Both the position numbers and the translations under genes were made by a program. Shown in pieces: positions 10,993 to 13,927 of a stretch of 64,000 bases of DNA. The notes under the pieces are model-generated. The model was given only the letters and a program-made list of their open reading frames with translations. It had not been told where the DNA came from and ran no database searches. Source of the stretch: Bacillus pumilus (GTDB lineage: Bacteria > Bacillota > Bacilli > Bacillales > Bacillaceae); NCBI RefSeq assembly GCF_003431975.1, contig NZ_CP027116.1, forward strand, positions 3,873,400 to 3,937,399, given 5' to 3'. Within the stretch, counting starts at the first letter, position 1. Each line of letters begins with the position of its first letter.

Positions 10993-11949
10993 TTAATCTA
11001 TCGTTTTCTTCACTCCATAATTGTCTTTTTGTCCAATGTCTTGTAAAGACCCGTTTTGATACCCAATAGATAACACCAAATCTGGAATAGAATCATACCC
11101 GTTTTTCGCTAGATCAAATAGCTGTGCACCATAATGTGAAGCGGCAATGCGCGCATTTTCTGCTGTGTATGGGTTTTTCAGGAGTTCTTCTTTGTATATA
11201 TCAAAAATATTGGTACCGTTAGCCGTTACAAATTGACCGTTTACAATGCTTAAATCTTTTAAATTGTAGCCTGTCACCGTTTTGATTTGATTGACAAGAT
11301 GGAACTTGGCAAGAGAATCAGGTGTAAATTGAGTAGAATCATCATTTCTACTTTTCATAATATGGAAAAATAATTCTCTTGTATTGTTGGTTGTATTTAA
11401 TAAGTCTTCTATTTGTTTCATCAGCGATTCGTCTTTTGAACCACCCACCACTAATTTAAAATTGTTCGGGTCAATGGTAAAGGTTAAATTTGTGTTTTTA
11501 GGAATGGTTATACCGTTTTTAGAGAATAAATCTTGTAATTGTTCGTTGACCTTTTGACGATTGAGTATTTTCTTTTCTACACTTTCTTGCGTAGGATCAT
11601 ACCTTTTTTCATTACGGAAGATGGCGTCATTAAAATCGTATTGTCCACCTTTTCCAGAATTAGCCCAGCCAATTTCCATCGTATAAGCAGCTTCTCTCTC
11701 TACTTTAGTTAGATCACTCCTGAAATAAGGAGAGCGTGGATTTCGATACTTATCGTGTATATGACCATGAGGATTTTTGAAACGTTTATTTTGTTCATTT
11801 ATTTTTTCGTATTTCTCATCTAATATTTTCATTCGTCTATCAGATTCGGTCATCACCTCATTTGTACTTTTAATAGCTGGATGGCTATTGAAGTCTGTAA
11901 GGTTCTGATTGTTTAGAATAGCAGTTGTGTTTGATGTATTTATCTTCAC
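10993..11949 (-). CDS. Unknown protein, second copy of a tandem pair (possibly DUF4885 family)
   Basis: A 318-aa protein without signal peptide or clear membrane segment. It is nearly identical to the upstream gene from about residue 30 on (ESDRRMKILDEKYEKINEQN, NTTNNTRELFFHIMKSRN, NPYTAENARIAASHYGAQLF); most differences are in the first 30 residues and the tail. The region from about 40 to 60 looks helical and charged. From memory it resembles the DUF4885 family, which I could not verify. It begins with GTG in a four-base overlap with the upstream gene's TGA, so translation is coupled. DNA is more A+T-rich than the neighbouring core genes. Confidence 0.8.
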   Translation of the reverse strand: MKINTSNTTAILNNQNLTDFNSHPAIKSTNEVMTESDRRMKILDEKYEKINEQNKRFKNPHGHIHDKYRNPRSPYFRSDLTKVEREAAYTMEIGWANSGKGGQYDFNDAIFRNEKRYDPTQESVEKKILNRQKVNEQLQDLFSKNGITIPKNTNLTFTIDPNNFKLVVGGSKDESLMKQIEDLLNTTNNTRELFFHIMKSRNDDSTQFTPDSLAKFHLVNQIKTVTGYNLKDLSIVNGQFVTANGTNIFDIYKEELLKNPYTAENARIAASHYGAQLFDLAKNGYDSIPDLVLSIGYQNGSLQDIGQKDNYGVKKTID

Positions 11950-12893
11950 TTTGATACTCCGTAATTCACTTTTTGTCCAATATCATATAAAGACCCGTTT
12001 TGATAACCAATAGATAACACCAAATCGGGAATTGAATCAAACCCGTTTTTGGCTAGATCAAATAATTGTGCACCATAATGTGAAGCGGCAATGCGCGCAT
12101 TTTCTGCGGTGTACGGATTTTTAAGAAGTTCTTCTTTGTATATATCAAAAATATTGGTACCGTTAGCCGTTACAAATTGACCGTTTACAATGCTTAAATC
12201 GTTTAAATTGTAGCCTGTCACCGTTTTGATTTGATTAACAAGGTGAAACTTGGCAAGAGAATCCGGCGTAAATTGAGCAGAATCTTCATTTCTACTTTTC
12301 ATAATATGGAAAAACAGTTCTCTTGTATTGTTGGTGGTATTTAAGAGATCTTCTATTTGTTTGACCAGTGTTTCGTCTTCTGATCCACTCACCACTAATT
12401 TGAAATGATTTGGATCAATCGTAAAAGTTAAATTAGTATTTTTGGGAATGTTTAAACCATTGGCAGAAAATAAAGCTTGTAGTTGTTCGTTTACTTTTTG
12501 ACGATTGAGTATTTTCTTTTCTACACTTTCTTGGGTAGGATCGTATCGTTTTTCATTGCGGAAGATGGCGTCATTAAAATCGTATTGTCCACCCTTATTA
12601 TTCCTTGCCCAACTCATTTCCATAATGTAAGCAGCTTCTCTCTCCACGGAAGTTAGGTCACTTCTGAAATAAGAAGAGTATGGATTTCGATACTTATCAT
12701 ATATATGGCCTTGAGGATCTTTGAAACGCTTATTTTGTTCATTTATTTTTTCGTATTTCTCATCTAATATTTTCATTCGTCTATCAGATTCGGTCATCAC
12801 CTCATTCGTACTTTTAATAGCTGATTGACCTTTAGGGTCTATTCGGTTCTGATTATAAGAAGTGCTGGCTGTGTATGACGTATTGATATTCAT
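11946..12893 (-). CDS. Unknown protein, first copy of a tandem pair (possibly DUF4885 family)
   Basis: A 315-aa protein, paralogous to the following gene along its whole length at both protein and DNA level, so the duplication is recent or kept alike by conversion. The N-terminus MNINTSYTASTSYNQNR is polar, like proteins exported without a cleaved signal, but this is only a hint. A good ribosome site (AAAAAAGGAGAATCAAA) precedes the ATG. A GCCGATAT element of SigD type lies about 40 bases upstream, suggesting expression with motility genes. Function unknown. Confidence 0.82.
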   Translation of the reverse strand: MNINTSYTASTSYNQNRIDPKGQSAIKSTNEVMTESDRRMKILDEKYEKINEQNKRFKDPQGHIYDKYRNPYSSYFRSDLTSVEREAAYIMEMSWARNNKGGQYDFNDAIFRNEKRYDPTQESVEKKILNRQKVNEQLQALFSANGLNIPKNTNLTFTIDPNHFKLVVSGSEDETLVKQIEDLLNTTNNTRELFFHIMKSRNEDSAQFTPDSLAKFHLVNQIKTVTGYNLNDLSIVNGQFVTANGTNIFDIYKEELLKNPYTAENARIAASHYGAQLFDLAKNGFDSIPDLVLSIGYQNGSLYDIGQKVNYGVSK

Positions 12894-12932
12894 TTTGATT
12901 CTCCTTTTTTAAAAAAATAGTGATTATTAAAT

Positions 12933-12960
12933 ATATCGGCAATTAAGTTAAAATTTGTTA
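12933..12960 (-). promoter_or_regulatory. SigD-type promoter for the tandem unknown genes
   Basis: On the minus strand TAAC, 16 bases, then GCCGATAT. The -10 element is a perfect match to the B. subtilis SigD consensus (TAAA-N15-GCCGATAT). The -35 has one mismatch and one extra spacer base. Confidence 0.6.
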
Positions 12961-12975
12961 GTTTTGATCCGATAT
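12949..12975 (+). promoter_or_regulatory. SigD-type promoter for the secreted protein gene
   Basis: TAAA, exactly 15 bases, then TCCGATAT: one mismatch from the SigD consensus with ideal spacing. It overlaps the opposing SigD-like promoter, so both divergent units could be switched on together. Confidence 0.65.
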
Positions 12976-13002
12976 AGTAATTATTACAAGGAGGGTTAAA
13001 AT

Positions 13003-13860
13003 ATGACAAATACTATCTTCAAACTTTTTTTATTACCTGCATTGGTATTAGTGCTTATTACTAGTCTGTTTGCACCTAATTCAGCAGAAGCAGCGATTAC
13101 GGGGAATAACAGCCCTAACACAGCAAGCTCAATGGGATATTGGAAATATAGTCGTCCAGATACGACAATCTTGCCTGAAGGTGAAAATGAAGCGTATTAT
13201 CAGTTCACGATTAACAAGGGTGAAAGAGTTTATGTAAGAAGTTCGTATAATAAGCAATATACAGGGATGAATATCGAGGTGTATAATTCGAAATATTCTA
13301 GGACAGGGTCCGAAGTTATTAATCCTCATTCAGTAACGCCTTTTATTTTTGCCAATACTGGTGATGTTACTTCAACTTCAGAAACTTATTTTGTGAAAGT
13401 GACCCGTGGTACATATACGGGAAATATGTATTTTACTGTTTCCATTCAAGATCGTATTAAATCTGGAAATGGGACATTCAACTTTCTGGGGTCTGCTACC
13501 AACTTGGGGAATTCTTCTTTAAATTTTTTAGGGGTTGATTCTTCTGTCATTACAATGGATTTAACTAATAATCCTGCAGTTCCTAAACGTGCTATTGTTA
13601 AATCGATTTCGACGACTAGTACTCAAACACCTAACCAAGGGAATGTCACACACAAACTGATGGCTGATGAAAACAAAATTTGGTACCAATCACTTTTTTC
13701 ATCTGCAACAAGTGGTTCTTATCGTATTTCTCTGGAAGATCAATTAAAAGTGGCTCAAAAATGGAGCTTTAAGTACAACGCAAAAGCTACAGCGAGATCT
13801 ACTATGAGTAATGTCAAAGCTGATATCCGTTACGAATATGATGTCACAGATGGATTCTAA
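13003..13860 (+). CDS. Secreted protein of unknown function
   Basis: A 285-aa protein with a clear Sec signal peptide: MTNTIFKLFLLPALVLVLIT, then a cleavage region at NSAEAA (about residues 26-31). The mature part is rich in Ser, Thr, Asn and Tyr and looks all-beta. Residues about 35-140 (including EAYYQFTINKGERVYVRSSY) recall bacterial pre-peptidase C-terminal or adhesin beta-sandwich domains, but I cannot assign a family. AAGGAGGG precedes the ATG. It is divergent from the tandem unknown genes and shares their putative SigD control region. Confidence 0.85.
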   Translation: MTNTIFKLFLLPALVLVLITSLFAPNSAEAAITGNNSPNTASSMGYWKYSRPDTTILPEGENEAYYQFTINKGERVYVRSSYNKQYTGMNIEVYNSKYSRTGSEVINPHSVTPFIFANTGDVTSTSETYFVKVTRGTYTGNMYFTVSIQDRIKSGNGTFNFLGSATNLGNSSLNFLGVDSSVITMDLTNNPAVPKRAIVKSISTTSTQTPNQGNVTHKLMADENKIWYQSLFSSATSGSYRISLEDQLKVAQKWSFKYNAKATARSTMSNVKADIRYEYDVTDGF

Positions 13861-13896: not shown

Positions 13897-13927
13897 AAAA
13901 AGTAAGGGGACATCCCTTACTTTTTTC
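13897..13927 (+). terminator. Terminator after the secreted protein gene
   Basis: AAAAAGTAAGGGG and CCCTTACTTTTTT form a strong stem with a T-tract. Confidence 0.85.

Follow-up and report, generated by a model that had tools for sequence, protein, structure and literature searches.

In Bacillus subtilis, the activity of the alternative sigma factor SigD marks motile cells. The promoters read by this factor follow the consensus TAAA-N15-GCCGATAT, as given in PMC5200910, and ybdO (BSU02050) is listed as SigD-controlled both in that paper and in PMC6323116; ybdN is reported as repressed by AbrB, not as SigD-controlled (PMC8307031). No paper with the term DUF4885 was found in the literature searched.

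The window analysed here, meaning the whole stretch of 64,000 nucleotides (64 kb) from Bacillus pumilus, lies at the end of a single-contig chromosome of 3,937,399 bp. Two divergent genes, at 11946-12893 (-) and 13003-13860 (+), are separated in it by 109 bp, and the following features were assigned around them:

13003..13860, plus strand: secreted protein, YbdN-like, 285 aa; a hydrophobic N-terminal stretch that closes with an AEA-type site is followed by two beta-sandwich domains
13897..13925, plus strand: terminator-like hairpin after the secreted-protein gene, from the sequence
11946..12893, minus strand: first DUF4885 gene (PF16226, YbdO-like), 315 aa; Pfam 347.6 bits, cut-off 34.4
10993..11949, minus strand: second DUF4885 gene, 318 aa, GTG start; Pfam 358.4 bits, cut-off 34.4

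A Divergent Gene Pair with Apparent Counterparts in B. subtilis

Proteins named B. safensis and B. pumilus share 91-92% identity with those of the window. The second DUF4885 gene is a tandem paralogue of the first (86% identical), whose end it overlaps by 4 nt; among 13 pumilus-group genomes a second copy was seen in G000, G001, G021 and G024, with some loci lying near a contig edge. Both units had been taken as unknown in the sequence-only reading, and this no longer holds entirely: the minus unit is apparently YbdO of B. subtilis and the plus gene YbdN, names that rest on papers and position and not on a named sequence match. A B. subtilis-like genome (G035) has only one DUF4885 match, at 225 kb, which we take to be where the gene numbered BSU02050 is expected.

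A Pfam search with the secreted protein returned no match, PPC included, and PPC was absent from the families matched by 27 of its relatives (E up to 1). Its first domain resembles the collagen-binding/PPC domains of collagenases, in fold likeness only, and the protein as a whole has the look of a binding protein lacking any enzyme domain; built of beta sandwiches, it would be exported through the Sec route. No signal peptide was seen in the first DUF4885 protein. The family has no Sec signal and a disordered start, whose sequence in the B. subtilis-type proteins (MRLN...) resembles the N-terminus of flagellin, and its products may be kept inside or leave by another route. The earlier proposal of a co-expressed surface or secretion-related module is borne out only in so far as one of the two proteins begins with a signal peptide-like stretch. 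One database protein of 382 aa (P0120) is a relative of the secreted protein that continues into a DUF4885 part, as if neighbouring frames had fused.

DUF4885 matches were obtained in 33 of 44 genomes of the genus and the secreted protein in 31, which divide into 23 with the gene divergent from DUF4885, seven with a distant relative only (L071-L077) and one with a fragment. Beyond the genus, even draws contained relatives in 10/397 and 11/398 genomes (order and class) and in 5/200 (one family), own-genus genomes included. The divergent pair is present at six further loci in five genera (L084, L093, L094, L104, L105, L106; genera per tool labels), so that 29 loci with divergent YbdN/YbdO-type neighbours and homologous proteins were inspected, 23 of them within the genus. 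Together with eight solo loci these make up the 37 DUF4885 loci counted below, which leave out a DUF4885 fragment (G016), the DUF4885 relatives of a tandem form (counted apart) and six contigs (L078-L083) that appear to come from strains whose genomes are already in the count.

Two Probable Crossed SigD-Type Promoters between the Genes

The inverted ATATCGG/CCGATAT pair at window 12933-12975 had been explained in the sequence-only reading as two back-to-back SigD -10 elements. Direct reading of the letters confirms that the plus strand carries TAAA-N15-TCCGATAT and the minus strand TAAC-N16-GCCGATAT, each with one mismatch against the SigD consensus TAAA-N15/N16-GCCGATAT, and the comparisons given further on support the explanation. 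The elements are as follows:

12949..12952, plus strand: -35 element TAAA of the secreted-protein gene promoter; kept in 12/12 pumilus-group loci with the gene, altered in G019 (without the secreted gene)
12968..12975, plus strand: -10 element TCCGATAT of the secreted-protein gene promoter; CGATAT invariant in 12/12 pumilus-group loci
12957..12960, minus strand: -35-like element TAAC of the DUF4885 promoter, N16 spacer; retained in G019 despite the missing secreted gene
12933..12940, minus strand: -10 element GCCGATAT of the DUF4885 promoter; 35/37 loci have CCGATA on this gene's strand
12988..12994, plus strand: ribosome-binding site AAGGAGG of the secreted-protein gene, read from the sequence
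12900..12906, minus strand: ribosome-binding site AAGGAGA of the first DUF4885 gene, read from the sequence

On the plus strand, the -35 element and spacer fit the SigD requirement (TAAA, spacer near 15) and the -10 element matches GCCGATAT at seven of eight positions, TCCGATAT being also the octamer at the promoter of a chemoreceptor gene (L010) of this genome. The minus-strand -10 element matches at all eight positions, while its -35 element and spacer (TAAC, N16) are off consensus. Between the end of the -10 element and the start codon lie 27 nt on the plus side and, counted on the sequence, 39 nt on the minus side; for motA and the chemoreceptor gene of the same genome the distances are 39 and 34 nt. 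SigD is itself encoded in this genome (TIGR02479, 286 bits, cut-off 189.6).

We consider it probable that 12933-12975 is an overlapping divergent pair of SigD (sigma-28 type) promoters serving the secreted YbdN-like gene and the two DUF4885 genes; the match to SigD elements and its conservation are observed, and from them we infer use by SigD. SigD RNA polymerase at TAAA-N15-TCCGATAT would transcribe the secreted gene at 13003, and at TAAC-N16-GCCGATAT the two DUF4885 genes at 12893-10993, with transcription predicted to begin about 7 nt beyond each -10 element, near 12982 and 12926, at points some 56 bp apart. The -35 elements are crossed, the plus one (12949-12952) lying inside the minus spacer and the minus one (12957-12960) inside the plus spacer; given this geometry, the region should accommodate only one holoenzyme at a time, which would set the two directions in competition. 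As SigD activity marks motile cells, both products would be expected in the SigD-active motile state.

Sites with at most one mismatch number two in the 64-kb window for the N15 class (shuffle mean 0.37) and two for the N16 class (shuffle mean 0.33), a count of two being reached in 5/100 shuffles in either case, and the second site of each class lies elsewhere in the window. A single one-mismatch SigD-type site in 64 kb is within chance and the inverted pair is beyond it: ATATCGG-N15..45-CCGATAT occurs once in the window and in none of 100 shuffles. The 3.94-Mb genome holds it at two places, the other within a CCA-adding-enzyme-like ORF, and 12933-12975 is the only intergenic pair of this spacing (15-45). 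A strict rule, TAAA-N14-16-CCGATAT, yielded 16 sites genome-wide versus 7 for the reversed pattern. Seven of the 16 precede a correctly oriented gene with its start codon 27-94 nt away, and these genes, named from sequence by eye, are motA, those for a chemoreceptor, an FlhO-type flagellar rod protein and the secreted protein, those for a putative lipoprotein and a putative methyltransferase, and one unidentified gene; the other sites inspected lie inside or across coding ORFs. The lipoprotein gene and the unidentified gene, of 182 aa, are preceded by the SigD-type sites L004 and L005. The site before the methyltransferase gene (L007, G000:C1:2509674-2509700, minus strand) reads TAAAATTTGTTAGGTGAGAGCCGATAT, and its first 13 letters are identical to those of the plus promoter described here.

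A Widely Conserved Element on the DUF4885 Side

On the DUF4885 strand, CCGATA is present at 28/29 divergent loci and at 7/8 loci without a close secreted neighbour, hence at 35/37 overall, the two exceptions being G043 (GCCTATAT, broken gene) and G038 (GTCGATAT). When one locus per lineage was counted (13 lineages in total, chosen by the authors), the element lay 30-75 nt before the start in 12/13, against 0.095 expected from dinucleotide shuffles. The -35 element varies much more than the -10 element across lineages (TTAA, TAAT, TAAA, TAAC and poorer).

These counts bear on the possibility that the matches are chance products of an AT-rich region in which SigA-type promoters drive both sides. 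Single 11/12 matches do occur elsewhere in the window, and SigA-like sites (TTAACT-17-AATAAT and TTGTCA-18-AATAAT) overlap the region on the minus strand; however, the 26 SigA-like sites of the region are no excess over the 21.5 plus or minus 4.4 expected from shuffles, and the recurrence of CCGATA at the right distance across lineages makes a chance origin very improbable.

A Lineage-Specific Element on the Secreted Side

On the secreted-gene strand, CGATA was found at 13/29 divergent loci, comprising 12/12 of the pumilus group and one Sporosarcina-like genome (L094, G619) in which the site reads TACA-N15-GACGATAT. In that genome the secreted gene has no ATG at the usual place and the listed ORF begins at a more internal TTG, which may mean a damaged start. 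Among the pumilus-group promoters of this gene, that of G021 is a perfect 12/12 match to the consensus. Within the pumilus group, TAAA and CGATAT are constant while the letters right before CGATAT vary (TC, GT, GC, GA), although the whole intergenic stretch of 109 bp is well conserved there and its conservation is not specific to the elements.

Because the SigD element of the secreted gene is absent at 16/29 divergent loci, those of B. subtilis-like genomes included, joint SigD control appears to be lineage-specific and no general rule. The earlier placement of both units in the motility regulon is supported on the DUF4885 side, which matches the listing of ybdO under SigD in B. subtilis, and on the secreted side would apply to certain lineages only; of the two -10 elements, for which a scan of related genomes had been proposed, the first is present at nearly all loci and the second chiefly within the pumilus group.

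It could be that only the DUF4885 promoter is of SigD type, the plus-strand match being incidental and the secreted gene being read by SigA as it apparently is in B. subtilis. At 10/11 B. subtilis/B. velezensis-type loci the secreted gene is preceded by TTTACA-N17-TATGAT and no CGATA, ybdN is listed under AbrB repression, and the first two letters of the plus-strand -10 element differ within the pumilus group. In the other genera, the loci taken as representatives show nothing on this side beyond SigA-like sites with 9 matches or, in L106, an AT-rich one seen by eye. For the window itself, however, a search of the plus strand from 12861 to 13010 found no SigA-like site with at least 9 matches, and across all 12 pumilus-group loci TAAA and CGATAT are unchanged next to spacer letters that vary. 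As two further points against SigA, both plus-strand elements are gone from a genome without the secreted gene, and a SigD-type -10 element precedes the secreted-type gene at 7/9 loci of the tandem form (both described below). We regard an incidental plus-strand match as rather unlikely.

Reciprocal Losses and a Tandem Form

Two genomes appear to have lost one partner each. G019, whose DUF4885 protein (82-84% identical) places it in the pumilus group and in which a search found no secreted gene, keeps TAAC-N16-GCCGATAT before DUF4885 and has lost both plus-strand elements (TAAA and -10). G043 has the secreted gene with an intact plus-strand -10 element, while its DUF4885 frame stops after 30 codons and the -10 element on that side has become GCCTATAT. 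The losses, reciprocal with one case each, point the same way and suggest that each -10 element belongs to the gene it faces.

A different explanation would make the inverted ATATCGG/CCGATAT pair a two-part operator for a dimeric regulator. Its inverted symmetry would suit such a site, as would a likeness of the arms that by eye reaches beyond the heptamers (CCGATATATTTAATAATCAC vs CCGATATAGTAATTATTAC, window 12913-12988); this likeness might also reflect an origin by inverted duplication of an older promoter. The -10 elements of G019 and G043, however, change only with the gene faced, each arm being lost together with the gene it precedes, which is unlike the behaviour of a two-armed operator. 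The DUF4885-side arm moreover stands alone at 16/29 divergent loci and 7/8 solo DUF4885 loci, and the changes before CGATAT in the plus arm are not mirrored in the other arm. An operator is thus disfavoured, and we give it hardly any weight.

Separate promoters are also indicated by a tandem version of the pair, represented by the nine loci L071-L077, L088 and L089. Distant relatives of the secreted protein (25-31% identical) are encoded there, at 7/9 ahead of a DUF4885-like gene in the same orientation, and CCGATA lies before 7/9 secreted-type and 5/7 DUF4885-like genes, with a chance per region of 0.002-0.022; in this count the start of the secreted-type gene of L071 was set 3 nt late, which shifts its window by 3 nt. 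Most of these genomes are closely related, so that the events are fewer than the loci, with L088 and L089 representing two other genera. On the DUF4885-like side the sites in L073 and L077 are perfect (12/12), the -10 element of L074 begins only 22 nt before the start codon and is without a good -35 element, and a search of L072 and L075 found no SigD-type -10 element. Two separate SigD-type promoters are consequently the best-supported reading, given the DUF4885-side element at 35/37 loci, the secreted-side element at 12/12 pumilus-group loci and in one other genus, the reciprocal losses and the tandem form.

Comparison with Known Systems

Good comparative support exists for viewing the locus as an ordinary promoter kind in an uncommon arrangement, half known from B. 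subtilis. New are the identification of the genes, the observation that the secreted side has changed its promoter type in particular lineages, the two reciprocal losses, and the existence of a tandem form. The locus links the DUF4885 family and a secreted protein of patchy conservation to motility; it is a place to follow a change of sigma factor on one of two divergent genes across species, and a compact system for testing whether overlapping promoters that share one alternative sigma factor compete. As a speculation that we think has a small chance of being right, the secreted beta-sandwich protein and DUF4885 would together make up a module of two proteins within the motility regulon, not previously described as such, occurring in divergent and tandem orders in several Bacillus-related genera, whose secreted side came under SigD more than once; the pumilus-group promoters would be mutually exclusive, with each motile cell alternating between the transcripts, and DUF4885 would possibly leave via the flagellar export channel.

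Set against the collagen-binding/PPC domains of secreted proteases (ColG s3b, 1nqd), the secreted protein shares 12% identity, has no protease domain and gave no Pfam PPC match. The SigD (sigma-28) promoters of Bacillus, e.g., those of motA and chemoreceptor genes, have the same -10 octamer, spacer and start-codon distance, but here two of them, in opposite directions, overlap head to tail with crossed -35 elements, the minus one being TAAC with N16. B. subtilis ybdN, a member of Sec signal-peptide libraries, is also divergent from DUF4885, and the 285-aa window protein is 56-59% identical to its counterparts in B. subtilis-type genomes, whose loci have a SigA-like promoter whereas those of the pumilus group have a SigD-type one. 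B. subtilis ybdO (BSU02050), listed with AbrB and SigD as regulators, is likewise a DUF4885 gene with the SigD-type -10 element kept; the proteins described here are shorter (315-318 aa vs 394 aa) and are encoded by two tandem copies.
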